Part shown: piece after piece, positions 3,572-56,700 of the stretch
How positions within the stretch are numbered: the first letter of the stretch is position 1
Layout: each line of letters opens with the position of its first letter
DNA from: Leptolyngbya iicbica LK
GTDB taxonomy: Bacteria; Cyanobacteriota; Cyanobacteriia; Phormidesmidales; Phormidesmidaceae
Assembly: GCF_004212215.1 (NCBI RefSeq)
Contig: NZ_QVFV01000002.1
Span: 865,525-929,524, forward strand
Direction of reading: 5' to 3'
Length of the DNA: 64,000 nt
The notes under the pieces: model-generated
What the model was told of the DNA's origin: nothing
Seen by the model: the letters and a program-made list of their open reading frames with translations, nothing else
The model's database searches: none
Made by a program: the position numbers and the translations under genes

Positions 3572-5340
3572 TAGTAGGCTTCAAGCATCTGTTTCACCAT
3601 CGGGGCGGCGACCGAGCCACCGCCGCCGCCAGAGTTTTCGCCGAAAGCCACGATCAAAATTTCTGGATCATCGGCGGGTGCGTAGGCCCCAAACCAGGTG
3701 TGGTTTTCAAAGGGATCGGCCTCTGCTGTGCCGGTTTTTCCGGCGATCGGCGGCAGATTCGGCAAATTCAACGCTTGAGCCGTTCCCCCTGAAATCACTT
3801 GTCGCAAACCATCTTGCAAAATTTTGACGGTCTCAGGCTGTAGACCCATCGGTTCACGCCAGTCATCGGGGGTGCGACTGTCTTTGAGTAAATGGGGCGT
3901 CACCATATAGCCGCCATTGGCCGGTACCGCAAACATCACGGCTACTTGTAGCGGCGAGGTTTGCAAATAACCCTGACCAATCGACATGTTAATGGTGTCA
4001 CCCACAAACCACTGGTAACCAATGACATCACGCTTCCAAGCATCATCTGGCACCAAACCGGGACTTTCTTCAGCCCCTAGCTCAATGCCGGTTTTGCTAC
4101 CAAAGCCAAACCGTCGGGTCCATTGGATCAGCGTTTCTCCACCAATGCGGCGACCCACTTGATAGAAAAAGGTGTCGCTACTCATCGCCATGGCCCCTCG
4201 GAATCCCAGCGGCCCAAAGCCGACATTGTTCCAGTCATGAAAGGCGATGCCGCCAATCGTAATAGCACCGTAGGTGGGCAAAATCGTTTCGTGGGCAAAG
4301 GCGCCCGATTCAATTCCCGCAGCGGTGGTAACAATTTTGAACGTGCTAGCAGGCGGAAACCCTTGCAGTGCCCGGTTGACAAAGGGATATCGCTGCCCCT
4401 GCAGTTGCGCCCACTGGGCATCAGTAATGTTGGTGGTAAAAATGTTGGGGTCAAAGGCTGGACGACTCACCATGGCCAGGATTTCGCCTGATTTTGGTTC
4501 GATCGCCACGATCGCTCCCTGCCGATCCCCCAGGGCCTGTTCGGCCAGCTTTTGCACCTCAAGATCAATGGTGAGTTGGACATCGTTGCCCGAAACGGCG
4601 GGCTTATCCCCTAATACGCTGATGACCCGACCAGAGCTATCAACTTCAACCTGTTGTCCCCCCCATTCGCCCTGCAGCATCGACTCAAAAGCGGCCTCAG
4701 ACCCCATTTGGCCAATGATGTCGCCGAGTCGATAGTCAGCATATTTGGGACTATCCAATTCCTCTTGAGTAATCTCGCCGGTATAGCCCAAAACGTGAGC
4801 AGCCAGGTCGCCGTTGGGATAGTTGCGCACGGCTTCTGCTTCGAGACGGACACCGGGTAGCTCTTGGCTAAATTCAGCGATCGCCGTGGCCTGGGCCGGA
4901 CTGATCCCCCGAGCAATGGTAATAGCCTCAATGGATTCGTAACCCGCTTGTTCAAGCCGTTGTTGAATGTCTTCCGGCGGCACCTTGAGAATGTCCGAGA
5001 GGCGGGCAATCACCGTAGGCCACTCAGACTTGGGCAGGGCGATCGGCCAGATGGAAATCGCGTGGGACAATCGGCTACTGGCGAGAATCTTGCCATTACG
5101 ATCGAGCAAAGCCCCCCGCGCCGGACGCTTGGGGACTAAACGAATGCGGTTAGTATCGGCCCGTTGGCGGTTAAGCGGGCCTTCGACCAGCTGTAACTGC
5201 GCCAGCCGTGTACCCACTGCGCCAAAGAGCACACCCGTCACAGCCAGCATCACCACCACCGCCTGAAAGTGCTTGCCAACGGTGCGATCGCTCTCTTTAC
5301 CAAGTCGTAATTGAAACCGAGAAGGAAACTCTAGCGTCAT
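3553..5340 (-). CDS. mrdA: Penicillin-binding protein 2, peptidoglycan transpeptidase
   Basis: A class B penicillin-binding protein of 595 residues that cross-links peptidoglycan in the periplasm during lateral wall growth, working with the RodA glycosyltransferase. There is one N-terminal membrane anchor (about residues 25-47), then the PBP dimerisation region beginning with the RPARGALLDRNGKILA block, then the transpeptidase domain. Catalytic motifs are present: STFK with nucleophile Ser at about 332, the SSD motif in MAMSSDTFFYQ, and KTGTAE with Lys at about 535. No rodA or mreBCD lies in the window. The gene is divergent from the pot operon across 451 bp. Confidence 0.93.
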   Translation of the reverse strand: MTLEFPSRFQLRLGKESDRTVGKHFQAVVVMLAVTGVLFGAVGTRLAQLQLVEGPLNRQRADTNRIRLVPKRPARGALLDRNGKILASSRLSHAISIWPIALPKSEWPTVIARLSDILKVPPEDIQQRLEQAGYESIEAITIARGISPAQATAIAEFSQELPGVRLEAEAVRNYPNGDLAAHVLGYTGEITQEELDSPKYADYRLGDIIGQMGSEAAFESMLQGEWGGQQVEVDSSGRVISVLGDKPAVSGNDVQLTIDLEVQKLAEQALGDRQGAIVAIEPKSGEILAMVSRPAFDPNIFTTNITDAQWAQLQGQRYPFVNRALQGFPPASTFKIVTTAAGIESGAFAHETILPTYGAITIGGIAFHDWNNVGFGPLGFRGAMAMSSDTFFYQVGRRIGGETLIQWTRRFGFGSKTGIELGAEESPGLVPDDAWKRDVIGYQWFVGDTINMSIGQGYLQTSPLQVAVMFAVPANGGYMVTPHLLKDSRTPDDWREPMGLQPETVKILQDGLRQVISGGTAQALNLPNLPPIAGKTGTAEADPFENHTWFGAYAPADDPEILIVAFGENSGGGGGSVAAPMVKQMLEAYYKDWQK

Positions 5341-5791
5341 CGTTTAGTGCTCGCCATGTCGGGCCAGAGATGCTATGTGACATCTCAACTAGGATAGCGG
5401 GCGATTCTCTGTTTTAGGAGGACTCCCTGGCTAATCGGCAGACAAAAATTTTCGCAGGTTGGTTGCCTCAATGCTCAGAACAACTGGCCATACCGTCGTC
5501 GTTGCTTTCCGCATGTTTCAGCAGTGGGTCAGGCTGAGCCATCAATCTCGGACTAATCGCTTTCGGAATAGCCCCCTCTAGACAGACCAAATACTGCGCC
5601 TTTTTGCTCAATCCTCTGGCGTCTTGTGTCTACTGCATGCGGCTATTCAGAGAAAACTTTGTCAAACTTCCTCTAACTGCCTTATAACAGTTTCAAACCA
5701 CATGTCATGATGCTGTCTGAGAATTCACCGGGCATTCTGATATCGAGCCATACTTATCGGCAACTCTACTGCTGTTCAGGGAATCACCTTC
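5341..5791. other. Divergent intergenic region, mrdA / potA
   Basis: 451 bp without a convincing gene. It should hold promoters for mrdA (leftward) and for the polyamine operon (rightward). The only candidate recognised is the sigma-70-like pair at 5659-5688, listed separately. The rest shows no repeat or RNA motif that I recognise. Confidence 0.5.
5659..5688 (+). promoter_or_regulatory. Candidate sigma-70-type promoter for potADBC
   Basis: TTGTCA (5659-5664) and TATAAC (5683-5688) are separated by 18 bp, close to the consensus spacing, and lie about 100 bp upstream of the potA start. The assignment rests on pattern only. Confidence 0.35.
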
Positions 5792-49613: not shown

Positions 49614-49771
49614 CTCAACTCGGGGACTCCATAATTTATCGGTTGCAGTCTAGGCTGCCCTGATATCGGCGATCGCTGTCATCAGTTCAGACGCGAACCC
49701 CAAAGCACCGGGAACGAGCACGGACTTCCGGTAGCATCAACTTAACCGGATCGCCTGCAAGGGTAATGACT

Positions 49772-51082
49772 ATGTTGAATCATCGTGTCACCTTGATCGT
49801 CGTCTTGCTGAGCGTTGTGGGAGCGCTGGGCTTTGGGCTCAAAACCTGGCGAGAGCGGAGTCGGGTGTATGAGTTGGTGCTAGCTTCCGGTAGTCAAACC
49901 GGAGAGTATTACGCCTTTAGTGAAGCCTTTGCCGCAGTCGTCGAGCAAAATCATCCTCACATTCGCATTGAAGTGATTGCCACAGAGGGCTCAGCGGACA
50001 ATATGACGCGCCTGCGAGACAACACCGCACAGTTGGCTCTGGTGCAGAGTGATACACCCGTCGAGCGCCCCGTGCGGGCGATCGCCCGACTGTTTCCCGA
50101 AATGTTTCATCTCTTGGTACGTCAAGACGCCAACATTCAAACCGTGGGCGACCTGCGCGATCGCCGCATTGCCCTGATGCCCGAAGGCAGCGGTTCGTAC
50201 GCCCTATTTTGGCCATTGGTCGAGCATTACAACTTGAGTGAGGCCGATTTTCAAGCGCTGCCCCAAGCCCCAGAAACCGCCTACGAGTCATTACTGGCGG
50301 GAGACGTCGATGCGCTATTTCGGGTAATCACCCTGGGCAACCCGTCAATGAAGGCAGTGCTGCAAAATGATGCGATCGCCCTGTTAGCCATTGACCAAGT
50401 CGAAGCGTTGCAACTGGCACTGCCCTATTTAGAAGCGCAAACGATTCCCAAGGGCACCTACGATGGGGGCCGCCCGCTGCCGCGTCAAGATTTGCCAGTC
50501 GTCGGTGTGAATGCCTTGCTGGTCATCCACGAAAACTTGCCAGATGAGGTGGCCCACGCCCTGACCGAAACGCTCTATACCCACCGCAATGAGTTAGTTA
50601 GCCGCTACCCCCGCGCCGCGCTGATTCGGCTACCGAGTTCGGGCAACGATTTAGGACTGCCGCTACATCCAGGGGCTCAAGCCTTTTACGATCGCGACCA
50701 ACCAGAATTCATCGTCGAATATGCCGAACCCATTGGCCTACTCATTTCGGTCTCAGTGTTATTAGCGTCGAGTCTTTGGCAATTTCGCATTTGGCTAAAG
50801 GGGCGGCAAAAAAATCGCGCTGACTACTACAACATTGAACTGTTGGATTTGATCGACCAAATCAACCAAACCCCAAATGCTGAAACGCTTGAAGACCTGC
50901 GCCAGCAACTATTCAAGATGTTGCGCGATGTCGTCTCAGACCTGGACAACGACTTGATTTCTGCCGACTCTTTTGAGTCGTTTACCTTTCCCTGGGAAAT
51001 TGCCCTCAACAGCTTGCGCTATCAGGAAGCCACCCTGCTGAAGCGGCTTCCCTCGACCGACGTTCCGACCCACCAGCCTTAA
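49772..51082 (+). CDS. TAXI-family substrate-binding protein with C-terminal anchor
   Basis: A TRAP-transporter-associated extracytoplasmic immunogenic (TAXI) solute-binding protein. The start at 49772 has AAGGG 8 nt upstream; an in-frame ATG at 49766 adds two residues. An N-terminal membrane helix (about 6-24) leads to the binding domain with LASGSQTGEYYAFSEAFA and VIATEGSADNMTRLRD. Unlike classical TAXI proteins it has a second transmembrane helix (about 322-342, PIGLLISVSVLLASSLWQF) followed by about 90 charged, helical, presumably cytosolic residues. No TRAP permease genes are nearby, so it may act as a sensor or as part of an orphan transporter. Confidence 0.82.
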   Translation: MLNHRVTLIVVLLSVVGALGFGLKTWRERSRVYELVLASGSQTGEYYAFSEAFAAVVEQNHPHIRIEVIATEGSADNMTRLRDNTAQLALVQSDTPVERPVRAIARLFPEMFHLLVRQDANIQTVGDLRDRRIALMPEGSGSYALFWPLVEHYNLSEADFQALPQAPETAYESLLAGDVDALFRVITLGNPSMKAVLQNDAIALLAIDQVEALQLALPYLEAQTIPKGTYDGGRPLPRQDLPVVGVNALLVIHENLPDEVAHALTETLYTHRNELVSRYPRAALIRLPSSGNDLGLPLHPGAQAFYDRDQPEFIVEYAEPIGLLISVSVLLASSLWQFRIWLKGRQKNRADYYNIELLDLIDQINQTPNAETLEDLRQQLFKMLRDVVSDLDNDLISADSFESFTFPWEIALNSLRYQEATLLKRLPSTDVPTHQP

Positions 51083-51700: not shown

Positions 51701-52093
51701 GAGTTCTCCCTGCGCGGCAATAAAGAAAAGGCTGATGCAGCGCCGCCCAAAGCGCCTTAAATTTAGCGACTGTCCGAAATCCCGTCAATGCTTATCGGGT
51801 CAAAATTATTTTTTTGTCTTAATCTTTGGCGGTGACAGCGCCGAAACTGAGACTCGCCGCTAGAATGGGCATCGTCTCAGCTCGTCTGGGGCTAAACCTG
51901 AGTGCTGGCCAGTGCTGTGTCAGCCAGTGTAGCCCCGCTCTCTATGCTCTGGACGCTAGTTCCAGGCGCGCTAGCTCCCTGTTCAAGGGGACGGCGACAG
52001 CAGAGACGCCTCAAGCGATCGCACAGTGGGCAATCGGCATGAGGTGCTGGGGCGATCGCACTGTTCGTAACGAGTCAAGGTGAAGGGCAAGTC
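51701..52093. other. Divergent intergenic region upstream of the caspase-fold gene
   Basis: 393 bp between the divergent secreted-protein and pseudo-caspase genes. It contains two HIP1 octamers near 52017 and 52053 and an AT-rich segment near 51800-51820. No promoter could be assigned with confidence, and no gene or RNA was recognised. Confidence 0.45.
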
Positions 52094-54091
52094 ATGGCAA
52101 ATCAATGGGCTCTCCTCATCGGCATTAACCAGTACAAAGCGCTGCAACCGTTGATGTACGCGCAGCCTGACGCCGTGGGACTTCGCAACTTTTTGGTCGA
52201 CGAGTTAGGGGTGCCAGTCAATCACTGCACCTTATTGACCGATGTCTCAGCGGCCATTGAGCCCCACGCCTATATGCCGTTGCGCCAAGAGATTGAGCAT
52301 CAGCTGGAAACGCTCTGCCGCGACCAAGTGCAACCTGGCGATTTGCTCTGGGTCTTTTTTAGCGGCTGCGGGCTGACAGAAGCCGGACAAGACTATTGGA
52401 TGACGCTGGATGCAGAACCAACGAATTTGTCAGAAACCGCGATTCCGGTGTCGCAAATTTTCAAGATTTTGAGTCAGGCCCAGACCGACCAGATTGTCTT
52501 GGCGATGGATATGAATCGGAGTCAGGGCGCGGTTGGTCATCGCGATATTGGCACTCAGACCCTCACCCTGGCGAAAGACTATGGCATCACGACCTTCTTG
52601 TCCTGTCAGCCGGAGCAGTTTTCTCACGAGACGATGTATGTGAAACACGGTCTCTTTACCAAAGCCATGCTTGAGGGGTTGCGGTATCACGGCTGTGTCA
52701 CGGCCTCACAACTGGGTGAATACTTGGCCAGCCGCGTCCCCGAACTCTGCGAACACCACTGTCGCCCTCCGCAAAATCCGGTGATGGTCGTGCCGCAAAC
52801 GCAAAAATTCATGATGGTGGTGCCCGCTGACGGCCTCGCCAACCTTTCACCAACGGAAAATTTGACGGCGATCGATGAGGCGACGCTGGCCACTGTCCCG
52901 GCCAACAACAATGTGCCGCCGGTATCGCCCGTCTCACCTGCATATGCCAGTGAGGACACTTCGCCCGCCGATGATGAGCCGCTCCCCCTCCAGTCTCAAC
53001 CGTCTCCGGAGCCCTCGCCATCCAGCATTGAGCGGGTGACCGCTGTGCAAGATGACTCGTCAGACACGGCTAGCGGGATGAGTGGCCTCTGGAAGTGGGG
53101 GGCATTGGCAGCCGCCATTGCATTTTTGGCAGGGGTGTTTTTCCGGTTTCAACCCATCCTCTTTGGCGAAGGCGAACAGACGGCCAGCGACACCCCCGCC
53201 GACGTGGTGGGCGACGATCCCGAGGGAGCTGGTGGACCAGACGGGGAAGCCGTACCTGAGGACGGCACCGCTCCGGCAGACGCTCCCCCAGCGGCAGAAA
53301 ATGACGCGGCCGCACCGACTGAAGCTCCGCCTGAACAAGAAGACCCGATTGAGCGGGGTAATACGGCCCTGCAACGCGCCGAGGAAGCCCTTGAGGCCCA
53401 ACGCTATGGCGAGGCGCGGGCGTGGCTCGAGCAAGTACCTCCTGAGGTGCAAAACAATCGCTATCAAGACCTGCTGCAATCGGCCAATAGTGAAGTCGCG
53501 GAGGCGGCGGTACGGAACCAAACCATTCTCAGCAATGCCCGTCAGGTTTTACAGCCCACATCGGCGTCGATGTTTAATGACGCGATTGAGCAAGCCCGAC
53601 AGGTCCCGCCTGAAGATCCTTACTATGAGCAGGCCCAAGCCGATATTAAACGGTGGGGACGGGTCATTCTCGATTTGGCCGAAGGGCGCGCCGCCAGTGG
53701 CAATATTGTGGGCGCGATCGCAGCCGCACGCCTCGTTCCTGAAGATCAGCCCGAACTCACCACCCTGGCCGCCCAACGCATCCAAAGCTGGGAGCAACAG
53801 ATCGCCAACCAGGAACTCATTCAACAAACCCAAAATTCGCTACAGCCGGGACAGGCCAGCAGCTATAACGATGCCGTCCGCACCCTGGAGCAAATTGAAC
53901 CCGGTCAACCGGGCTATGAGGATGCCCGAGCTCGCATGCAGCAATGGGGACAGGATATTCTCGCGATCGCTCGCGCTCGGGCGGCCCAGGGCGACCTTGG
54001 CGGCGCGATCGGGGCCGCTCGACTCGTCCCCGAAAGCACGGATGCCTACGCGGCAGCCCAGGAAGAGATCCAACGCTGGCAAGCCCAGTAA
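52094..54091 (+). CDS. Caspase-fold protein without catalytic dyad, membrane-spanning, with C-terminal helical repeats
   Basis: A 665-residue protein. Residues 1-235 form a peptidase C14 (caspase/orthocaspase) p20-like domain: WALLIGINQYK, HCTLLTD, LLWVFFSGCG and YWMTLDAEP follow family order. The catalytic His of the usual SGHG is Cys92, and the catalytic Cys of the usual D-x-C-x-S-G is Asn141 (MDMNRSQG), so it is predicted to lack proteolytic activity. After an acidic Pro/Ser-rich linker comes one transmembrane helix (about 332-351), a second acidic linker, then helical repeats: a unit of about 95 residues occurs twice (about 478-570 and 574-665) with the shared pattern A(I/V)..A..V...... 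and ILxLAExRAAxGxIxGAIxAARLVPE. The sequence ends cleanly at a TAA stop codon. Confidence 0.8.
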   Translation: MANQWALLIGINQYKALQPLMYAQPDAVGLRNFLVDELGVPVNHCTLLTDVSAAIEPHAYMPLRQEIEHQLETLCRDQVQPGDLLWVFFSGCGLTEAGQDYWMTLDAEPTNLSETAIPVSQIFKILSQAQTDQIVLAMDMNRSQGAVGHRDIGTQTLTLAKDYGITTFLSCQPEQFSHETMYVKHGLFTKAMLEGLRYHGCVTASQLGEYLASRVPELCEHHCRPPQNPVMVVPQTQKFMMVVPADGLANLSPTENLTAIDEATLATVPANNNVPPVSPVSPAYASEDTSPADDEPLPLQSQPSPEPSPSSIERVTAVQDDSSDTASGMSGLWKWGALAAAIAFLAGVFFRFQPILFGEGEQTASDTPADVVGDDPEGAGGPDGEAVPEDGTAPADAPPAAENDAAAPTEAPPEQEDPIERGNTALQRAEEALEAQRYGEARAWLEQVPPEVQNNRYQDLLQSANSEVAEAAVRNQTILSNARQVLQPTSASMFNDAIEQARQVPPEDPYYEQAQADIKRWGRVILDLAEGRAASGNIVGAIAAARLVPEDQPELTTLAAQRIQSWEQQIANQELIQQTQNSLQPGQASSYNDAVRTLEQIEPGQPGYEDARARMQQWGQDILAIARARAAQGDLGGAIGAARLVPESTDAYAAAQEEIQRWQAQ

Positions 54092-54492
54092 AGGCGCGGC
54101 ATGACAACGACAGGCCCATTCCGGCCAGTAGCGGGTAGATGAGTGTTGCCAGCGTCGCTGGTTCAGCGCTGGCACTGGGTTGATTCGGCCAGTGATCCAT
54201 TCAAGCGGCGTTGGGCAAAGTCTCAAAGAGCAAGATTACAGGCGATCGCTGACTCGTGCACAAAAAGCAGCATCGGGCCTGAGGCCCAGCTCGAATCACA
54301 GTAAACGCCGCCCTGGATTGACTTGAATCAATCCATCCGGGATTTCACATTTATAAAAACGCTAATAACCAGTAAAATTTGAGTAACTGATGTTCTTCCA
54401 CCGACAAACCGCCAATCGCGGGGCGCAATATCGGTAGGATGGATCTTGATTTCGAGCGCTGCTCTGTTGACGCACAACATAGGTATCTGGAC
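54092..54492. other. Intergenic region with three stem-loops
   Basis: 401 bp between the caspase-fold and transketolase-like genes. Inverted repeats: GCCAGCG/CGCTGGC (54148-54154, 54167-54173), GGGCC/GGCCC (54275-54279, 54283-54287) and GGATTGA/TCAATCC (54315-54321, 54328-54334). The first is a possible terminator of the upstream gene; the last lies in the probable promoter region of the next gene, upstream of an AT-rich segment with TATAAA (54352-54357). Roles are unproven. Confidence 0.5.
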
Positions 54493-56700
54493 ATGACCGC
54501 AGTCACTTCTAAGCCAACGGCCCCTGCATTTTGCGATGGCATTCAGCTTTTTGCTGATGCGCTCCCGGATTTTGACACCTACGGCAAAACGCCCGCCATT
54601 GGTGAGGGACAGGCTGCGATCGCTTCCCCTACGGACGCCGCGGCAGTGTATCAAACCATGTTGGCGGCGGATGCTTTGCGGTATCTCACGTTGCAGGTGA
54701 CGGCGAGCAAACAGTCAGGGCACCCCGGCGGCTTTGCCAGTATCGCTGACGGCATTGCGGCGCTGACCATGCTAGGCCATAAAAATATCGTGACGGAAGT
54801 CGGTCATCACGCTCCTGGCTTTTACAGCACCGTGTTTCTCGATCGCTCCCTGGAAGCGATGGGCATTGAGACCGTGCAGCAGATGTGCGATCGCTTCCGT
54901 GAGACCCACGGGTTGTTGGGCCACCTGTCCGGTCAGATTCCCGGCTTGCTGAGTCCCGCTGGTCCCTTAGGCCAAGGCCAGCACTTCGCGATGGCGGGGG
55001 CCAAGCTGCACCCTGGCGTCCTCTTTCCCGTCACCATTGGCGACGGCGGGCTGGGCGAACCCTACATCATGAGCAGCTTTGGCCACTTCCACACGGCCTA
55101 TCCCCAAGTCACCAACTTCTTGCCGGTGTTGGTGTGGAACGGCTATTCCCAAGAGCACCACAGCATGGTGTCCACCCAGTCCAACGAGACGATGATCGCT
55201 TATTGGCGAGCCAATGGGTTTAAAGAAGTCATCTTGGTGGATGCCAAAGATTTCGACGATGCCAATCAGCCGGGTGCTTACGTCGACAGCACCGCTTTTT
55301 CGCAACAGCAGCGCTTGGCCTTTACTCAAGCCGTGCTCGAAGCGACCGATAAAGCAGCCAAGTCGGCCCTAGGCGGCACGCTGACCGTCCTGATTATCAA
55401 GCAGCTTAAGGGCGCAGGCGTTCACAAGCGGGGGGCAAAATCCCACAACTTGTATCCGGGCGATAGCCTCGACAAAGACTACATTGTGGAGGCGCTCAAG
55501 GCACGGGCTTTGACGCCTGGTGCGTGGGATTTGGTGCGCACTAACTTGGTGCGATCGAATGGCGGGCCAAACTCCACTACAGCGGTGACGGAATCTGTCC
55601 TGGCCTTGCCCGATTTAGGGACTCTGCCACTACAAGAATTTGCCGTGGGCGGTGATAAGCAAGTCGCCACCACCGCCATGGGGGTACTGGTGGGCCACGT
55701 CGGTCAGCAAGATCCGCAATTCATCGTGACCAATGCTGACGGCAACGCCGCTTCGGGGATCAACAACATCAACCAGGCGCTCAAAATCATTCACCCGACG
55801 ACGGATGAAACCTATTTTCAGCAGCCTCAGGGCCAGGTATACGAGCCGCTGAGCGAAGATGCCTGTGCTGGATTAGCGGCGGCTCAGGCCCTATTTGGGG
55901 CGCGATCGCTCTGGTGCTCTTACGAATCGTTTGCCATCAATGGCCTGCCCATTTGGCAAACCGTCACCCAGGCCATGGCGGAACTGCGCCGTCCGACGCC
56001 CTCGACCATTACCCTCTTTACCGCAGGGGCGCTAGAGCAGGGTCGCAACGGCTGGACCCACCAACGCCCCGAGATCGAAAACTATTTCGCGGGCATGATG
56101 CGCAATGGCAACATCTTCCCGCTGTTCCCCATTGACGCCAACAGCATCCAGGCTTGCTACGAGTGGGCGCTAGGCACCTTTAACAAAGGCATCACGATCA
56201 CCGCCAGCAAATCACCGCTGCCGGTGCGGACGACTCTGGCCCAAACCCGCACCGCCTTGGAGAAAGGTGCCATTGAACTCAGCTCAACGAGCGGCAGCAA
56301 AACGGTGGTCTTTGCGGTGATTGGCGATATGACGCTGATTCCAGTCTTGGAAGCCGCCGAACAGCTCACCGCTGCGGGCATGGGCGTTCGCGTGGTCTCG
56401 GTCGTGAGTCCGCGACAGCTCTATCGACCCAATGACGTGGCTTGGGATAGCGTCTCTGAGCCCGATGGTAACTTCCTCAGCGATGCCGAATTCGCCGAGT
56501 TGTTTGACGGCGATGCCTTAATTGGCGTTACGGGCGGTTCTTCTGCCATGTTGGAGCCGATTATGTTGCGCAGCAATACGCCCCGCGACACCTTTGCCTG
56601 GAAGCGCGGTGAAACTGCTGCCAGCGCGGCCCAGGTCATGGCCATCAACGGCATTACGGCGGAAAACTTTGTTAGCCGCGCCAAGGAATTGCTGGGGTAA
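54493..56700 (+). CDS. Thiamine-diphosphate enzyme, transketolase/phosphoketolase-like
   Basis: A 735-residue enzyme of the transketolase superfamily. SGHPGGFASIADG near residue 70 and GDGGLGEP plus the Asn of VWNGYS (ThDP/Mg2+ site, about 180-220) form the N-terminal half. The C-terminal half has phosphoketolase-like features, such as EQGRNGWTHQRPEIENYF and PIDANSIQACYEW. It is shorter than canonical phosphoketolase (about 800) and longer than transketolase (about 660), with distinct motifs, and should not be equated with either. It may cleave a sugar phosphate or a related ketose. The ATG at 54493 was chosen; an in-frame ATG 18 codons upstream (54439) is an alternative. The gene stands alone. 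Confidence 0.78.
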   Translation: MTAVTSKPTAPAFCDGIQLFADALPDFDTYGKTPAIGEGQAAIASPTDAAAVYQTMLAADALRYLTLQVTASKQSGHPGGFASIADGIAALTMLGHKNIVTEVGHHAPGFYSTVFLDRSLEAMGIETVQQMCDRFRETHGLLGHLSGQIPGLLSPAGPLGQGQHFAMAGAKLHPGVLFPVTIGDGGLGEPYIMSSFGHFHTAYPQVTNFLPVLVWNGYSQEHHSMVSTQSNETMIAYWRANGFKEVILVDAKDFDDANQPGAYVDSTAFSQQQRLAFTQAVLEATDKAAKSALGGTLTVLIIKQLKGAGVHKRGAKSHNLYPGDSLDKDYIVEALKARALTPGAWDLVRTNLVRSNGGPNSTTAVTESVLALPDLGTLPLQEFAVGGDKQVATTAMGVLVGHVGQQDPQFIVTNADGNAASGINNINQALKIIHPTTDETYFQQPQGQVYEPLSEDACAGLAAAQALFGARSLWCSYESFAINGLPIWQTVTQAMAELRRPTPSTITLFTAGALEQGRNGWTHQRPEIENYFAGMMRNGNIFPLFPIDANSIQACYEWALGTFNKGITITASKSPLPVRTTLAQTRTALEKGAIELSSTSGSKTVVFAVIGDMTLIPVLEAAEQLTAAGMGVRVVSVVSPRQLYRPNDVAWDSVSEPDGNFLSDAEFAELFDGDALIGVTGGSSAMLEPIMLRSNTPRDTFAWKRGETAASAAQVMAINGITAENFVSRAKELLG

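Follow-up and report, generated by a model that had tools for sequence, protein, structure and literature searches.

A 64,000-nucleotide stretch of the Leptolyngbya iicbica LK genome (contig NZ_QVFV01000002.1, positions 865,525 to 929,524; hereafter, the window) carries an open reading frame of 665 codons, with no inner stop and a stop codon at its end, that encodes a pseudo-orthocaspase, a caspase-like protein in which both catalytic residues are substituted. Directly upstream, on the opposite strand, lies a small gene that we call the partner gene. The features of this locus are collected in Table 1, and we propose that the products of the two genes are likely to be linked in function.

Table 1. 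Features of the pseudo-orthocaspase locus, in window coordinates (pLDDT, predicted local distance difference test; aa, amino acids).
Feature	Coordinates	Strand	Remarks
Partner gene, 143 aa	51269..51700	-	Divergent; hydrophobic N-terminus, A-x-A site before YTARV; without Pfam/NCBIfam family
Intergenic region between divergent starts	51701..52093	.	Blocks conserved with L005, L006
Pseudo-orthocaspase coding sequence	52094..54091	+	665 aa; linkers separate caspase domain, membrane helix and alpha-helical repeat tail, in this order
Caspase (p20/C14) domain, residues 1-245	52094..52828	+	Catalytic residues substituted
Asp26	52169..52171	+	104/104 invariant; candidate S1 pocket acid; aligned with metacaspase-1 Asp
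Cys92 (TGC)	52367..52369	+	Replaces catalytic His; most relatives carry Tyr
Asp139	52508..52510	+	104/104 invariant; candidate S1 pocket acid; lost Cys follows two residues on
Asn141 (AAT)	52514..52516	+	Replaces catalytic Cys; 108/111 homologs
His178-Glu179	52625..52630	+	Glu 104/104, His 94/104
Disordered linker, residues 246-330	52829..53083	+	pLDDT <50 for 256-329
Single membrane helix (predicted), residues 331-351	53084..53146	+	Model helix; hydropathy
Alpha-helical repeat tail, residues 418-665	53345..54088	+	Block pLDDT 82-98 from residue 421

The encoded protein matches Pfam Peptidase_C14 over residues 4-216 (E 2.8e-14; 53.8 bits against a cut-off of 21.4) and is assigned to the caspase-hemoglobinase fold, and its predicted model shows the caspase fold with confidence. 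When aligned with HMMER, its FFSGCG segment falls on the FSGHG catalytic-His motif of metacaspase-1 (7qp0, 4f6o), and its DMNR segment on DMCR of MALT1 (3v4o). The single-sequence matches to these structures are weak (E 0.027-1), and the family profile matches metacaspase-1 at E 1.2e-8. With regard to anti-phage caspase defence proteins, the generic PADLOC 'caspase' model was matched at model positions 2-130 of 453 (E 5.9e-16), and NCBIfam caspase_w_EACC1 scored 60.8 bits, below its cut-off of 140. The His-Cys (HC) dyad of active orthocaspases is absent from the window protein. Translation and the alignments to structures thus bear out the reading frame and the two substituted codons, Cys92 and Asn141, that the initial annotation had described.

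To define the family, 7998 candidate proteins were scored, and 111, including the query, were retained. Their dyads, written as the residues at positions 92 and 141, were YN in 81, CN in 25, and CS, FN, YS, HN and HC in one each, the lone HC homolog being a distant outlier; Asn141 was present in 108 of the 111, and Tyr92 in 82. The ratio of non-synonymous to synonymous substitution rates (dN/dS) of the p20 domain, taken from five finished pairs with ten further pairs not included, was 0.04 in four pairs, and the fifth had zero non-synonymous changes. The p20 domain is therefore under strong purifying selection and is being kept rather than decaying, and a family of this size with Asn141 almost throughout argues against chance. 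The initial annotation had read the protein as a retained pseudo-enzyme, and the selection, the deep conservation and the confidently predicted fold agree with that view.

The history of the two substitutions was examined in a p20 tree of 188 rows, built with both dyad columns removed and two HC outgroup rows, and without YS-clade rows or the sequences of PMC6426788 by name. The window protein is nested within the YN rows, with proteins of Leptolyngbya, Nostoc and Microcoleus relatives, on a main Cys92 branch of 33 rows (Shimodaira-Hasegawa-like approximate likelihood ratio test, SH-aLRT, 100), 30 of which carry Cys92. Separate origins of Cys92 were placed in Moorena (L051, L056, L067) and in Phormidium tenue FACHB-886 (L079), and Tyr92 was regained in P0004 and P0016. 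The parsimony minimum is six gains or losses of the dyad label and five Tyr/Cys changes at position 92; most simply, Cys92 would have arisen three times and returned to Tyr twice. Asn141 is thus the old, clade-wide state and Cys92 a recurrent, derived variant of Tyr, so that the two residues were not lost as one Cys/Asn event.

The window protein shares with the published YN clade its place in the tree and Asn at the Cys position, and departs from it in having Cys rather than Tyr at the His position, a residue derived within the clade; the clades were named after their most prominent dyad, according to the available text of PMC6426788, so that the label reflects prevalence and is not defining. 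It is near certain that the protein is a conserved, dyad-less member of the YN clade, and the replacement of its catalytic dyad is a known finding, the protein being a branch inside that clade. In the accessible parts of two further surveys, CN and CS, and also HN, are listed among 16 rarer pseudo-orthocaspase motifs (PMC8283722), and one sequence with Cys for His and nine with Asn for Cys are counted (PMC7475262). With Asn141 clade-wide, Cys92 alternating with Tyr and CN already published, the emphasis that the initial annotation put on a special Cys/Asn pair is not supported.

A candidate acidic pocket has been kept. Among the 104 family members in the alignment used for invariant residues (seven of the 111 were left out), the three acidic positions in Table 1 are unchanged, and in 28 HC paralogs Asp139 was found in 28/28, Asp26 in 22/22 aligned and Glu at position 179 in 15/21 aligned. 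At position 178, where most of the family has His, Tyr stands in 10 of the 21 aligned HC paralogs, so that His and Tyr look exchanged between positions 92 and 178. Cys171 is present in 96/104 family members, with Ser in 6/104 and Ala in 2/104, and also in 10/21 aligned HC paralogs. The basic-residue pocket of MALT1 includes D365, D462 and E500. Two basic-pocket Asp residues of Trypanosoma brucei MCA2 are kept in pseudo-orthocaspases, as given in the available text of PMC6426788.

Beyond the caspase domain, the membrane segment and repeat tail named in the initial annotation were both recovered, by the predicted model, hydropathy and repeat comparison. A hydropathy peak for the membrane helix was present in 107/110 homologs, and the repeat tail in 145/148 family frames vs 0/28 catalytic paralogs; in the window protein, two repeat units close the tail, with 38/82 aligned residues identical. 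Pfam repeat models remained below cut-off in the window protein (ARM_TT21, 23.7 bits vs 27; TPR_19, 15.9 vs 25); the precomputed domains of some relatives do include PF25058 or PF14559. We have not found a clade-wide combination of membrane helix and alpha-helical repeat tail described in the literature. In 56 further tail proteins, a caspase domain was present in 46 (45 YN, 1 CN) and missing from 10, which comprise five of a short form (P0112-P0116), three apparent fragments or truncations (P0124, P0146, P0164) and two membrane proteins with many repeats (P0166, P0167). The latter two, together with L054:2300-4363 (- strand), are caspase-less membrane proteins of 634-722 residues in which the same helical repeat recurs many times, and one many-repeat membrane protein gene lies ∼3.4 kb from a pseudo-orthocaspase gene. 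At L163, a short caspase-domain remnant (655-870) stands upstream of a tail frame (1252-2289), and this copy seems to be eroding.

Gene neighbourhoods were compared in the window and 80 named loci (the best 80 of 293 relatives). The most widespread neighbour of the pseudo-orthocaspase was the small opposite-strand gene directly upstream, adjacent in 42 of the 73 loci having at least 1.2 kb of upstream sequence (in one of them the match is a weak piece of 27.7 bits). With the loci clustered at 70% p20 identity, it was adjacent in 19 of 29 clusters, and the neighbour families ranking after it, counted anywhere within 8 kb, reached 12/32 and 10/32. The partner was not found at the upstream position in Microcoleus-named loci. 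Its protein begins with a hydrophobic stretch followed by A-Y-T-x-R, in which A35, Y36, T37 and R39 are each conserved in at least 90%; this N-terminus is likely a signal peptide and the protein secreted. Its predicted model becomes confident at about residue 36 and shows a strand-helix-strand-strand core. Neither Pfam nor NCBIfam gave a family, solved structures gave no clear match, and we did not find this conserved divergent gene in the literature.

Several further observations concern the surroundings of the partner gene. Intergenic blocks at 51740-51835 of the window, perhaps shared promoter elements, are conserved with L005 and L006. Two tandem partner copies (L209:3345-4259 and 4299-5510) stand beside a YS-type pseudo-orthocaspase in G278. 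A gene whose motifs resemble those of a sulfite-oxidase-like molybdopterin oxidoreductase often adjoins the partner (18/81 loci; e.g., L158:1308-1952, L200:4277-4900, L201:1729-2337, L204:1759-2352), and is also found beside weaker partner relatives in G005 and G300 (L200, L201), genomes without a family match at 1e-60.

Co-occurrence was evaluated in 386 cyanobacterial genomes, 383 of which have a completeness of 90% or more and a contamination of 5% or less. At strict thresholds (pseudo-orthocaspase E 1e-95, partner 1e-35, chosen after the tables had been seen), 69 genomes contained the pseudo-orthocaspase and 48 the partner; 47 contained both, 1 the partner only, 22 the pseudo-orthocaspase only and 316 neither. 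The dyads of 68 carrier hits were YN in 63, YS in 3, CN in 1 and HN in 1, the 69th being the window. Adjacency was seen in 45 of the 48 partner genomes. In the sole partner-only genome, G027, it lies beside a 419-residue frame without a caspase domain, whose protein begins with MAN and continues directly with linker, membrane helix and tail; the five C14 matches of this genome are located elsewhere. Five further proteins of 386-413 aa, with 66-97% identity, share this short form, so an assembly slip in G027 is unlikely. Since the pair survives without the caspase domain in one lineage, the partner appears to go with the tail rather than with the caspase domain.

With the divergent partner and the caspase-less tail protein in view, the tail and its partner become more prominent than the dead active site. 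The reading we favour, with a probability of roughly one half, is that the window protein is a single-pass membrane pseudoprotease scaffold or sensor that works via its tail with the small, likely secreted divergent protein. The caspase domain, being N-terminal and without an evident signal peptide, would be cytoplasmic; the tail and the partner would both be located in the periplasm or thylakoid lumen, bound to one another; the caspase domain may bind, without cutting, a basic-residue ligand through the kept acidic pocket; and partner binding outside could alter ligand binding inside. The regulator or receptor role proposed in the initial annotation is possible. A more far-reaching version, a two-gene cyanobacterial transmembrane receptor in which a secreted sensor docks on the outer helical repeat tail and governs a dead caspase in the cytoplasm whose sole task is to bind Arg/Lys-containing peptides, seems to us rather doubtful.

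A number of points weigh against the scaffold or sensor reading. Tail-partner contact, topology, ligand binding and inactivity are all steps that we infer. Lys/Arg residues flanking the helix leave the topology undecided, with more before it in 38 of 107 proteins, more after it in 38 and equal numbers in 31, and the assignment of E179 to the S1 pocket is uncertain because the MALT1 alignment has a gap there. The strict thresholds were set post hoc, and the Fisher p of 3e-42 for co-occurrence is uncorrected for shared ancestry. With the partner at 1e-8, both genes were found in 55 genomes, the partner only in 25, the pseudo-orthocaspase only in 14 and neither in 292; with both thresholds loose (1e-60, 1e-8), the counts were 64, 16, 16 and 290. 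The close partner family tracks the pseudo-orthocaspase, and weaker relatives also occur without it; moreover, the partner is not obligatory, being absent in strong form from 22/69 carrier genomes.

The main rival, which we regard as unlikely and yet worth serious attention, is that the two genes are mere neighbours, held together by a kept bidirectional promoter and co-regulated without physical partnership. The inter-frame gap below 500 bases in 41/42 adjacent loci, the conserved intergenic blocks and the weaker partner relatives next to the sulfite-oxidase-like gene fit this explanation, as does the partner on a separate contig in G164 and G110; however, the 47-to-1 strict co-occurrence and the partner kept beside the caspase-less tail protein both point to a link between the products. 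Alternatively, the caspase domain might act on active orthocaspases of the same cell, either as a decoy or as a regulator, in the way that cFLIP acts on caspase-8. This we consider improbable, although the genome has three more C14 proteins, L001 and L002 with the HC dyad, and T. brucei MCA4 and cFLIP provide precedents (PMC6426788, available text), since the same text argues against it on the ground that small unicellular cyanobacteria have only a pseudo-variant, and no other C14 gene was noticed in the 22 listed neighbour families, none of which was specifically scanned for C14.

The remaining explanations keep a role for particular residues of the caspase domain. Activity could have been kept or regained with a moved site, such as Cys171 with His178 in the loop that follows the fifth strand; the conservation of both residues in the family and the Tyr found at 178 in HC paralogs, mirroring the His loss at 92, make this conceivable. 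However, Cys171 is also common in HC paralogs and thus not a new nucleophile, and it gives way to Ser or Ala in some family members, so that a moved site is highly improbable. Least credible of all is a function specific to the Cys/Asn pair, such as a redox switch at Cys92: this residue is fixed in most of one clade, but by parsimony it has come three times and gone twice, and Tyr is the usual state.

Comparison with known systems places the protein closest to the YN-clade pseudo-orthocaspases (Klemencic et al., 2019; PMC6426788), which also have a p20 without the HC dyad, Asn at the Cys position and a kept acidic pocket; in the available text, however, that clade has Tyr at position 92 and no identifiable C-terminal domain, unlike the window protein with its Cys92 and repeat tail. 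The CN/HN/CS pseudo-orthocaspases share the CN pair, but the accessible part of PMC8283722 links no architecture or neighbourhood to CN; the same paper gives WP_010997820.1 as the YN protein of Nostoc sp. PCC 7120. Transmembrane domains were reported in 25/98 orthocaspases (PMC7475262), so the helix is not new in general, although the accessible part of that paper connects them neither with the YN clade nor with any repeat tail or partner gene. Another cyanobacterial pseudo-orthocaspase, SyOC of Synechocystis sp. PCC 6803, differs in its Tyr-Gly dyad (PMC6426788, Table 1); its knock-out raised oxidative-stress tolerance (PMC7889975, available text). MALT1 paracaspase and plant metacaspases (PDB 3uo8, 6w8r) differ in that the native enzymes have an active His/Cys dyad and other accessory domains.

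Two other genes of the window were also inspected. At 54439-56700 lies a frame for a divergent, 753-residue phosphoketolase-like protein, for which two of three XFP models pass (49.4 vs 22 bits and 36.2 vs 23.7 bits) and XFP_C fails. Upstream of the partner, 49766-51082 encodes a solute-binding protein of the TAXI/NMT1 type that probably has a membrane segment and is outside the 22 listed recurrent neighbour families.

In the available text of PMC6426788, YN variants are said to occur only in multicellular nitrogen-fixing cyanobacteria. Scoring nifH as present at E 1e-110 or better, we found it in 39/69 carrier genomes, including that of the window, and found it absent from 30/69, one of which (G207) is of the same family as the window's genome. 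Three of these 30 have other dyads (G112 YS, G247 HN, G352 CN), and YN genomes without nifH number 27/63. We did not find such nifH-less carriers described in the literature against the published confinement to nitrogen fixers, and the result weakens the published hint of a role tied to multicellular nitrogen fixation.

Years of cataloguing cyanobacterial pseudo-orthocaspases have yielded few hints of what they do, and the membrane helix, the tail and, above all, the family-less conserved neighbour now provide the YN clade with a testable partner and cell location. If the two-gene receptor reading is true, a pseudocaspase would be the basis of a bacterial receptor, with a tail-plus-partner core separable from the caspase domain; as a receptor, it would represent a protease fold reused for binding once its active site was gone.
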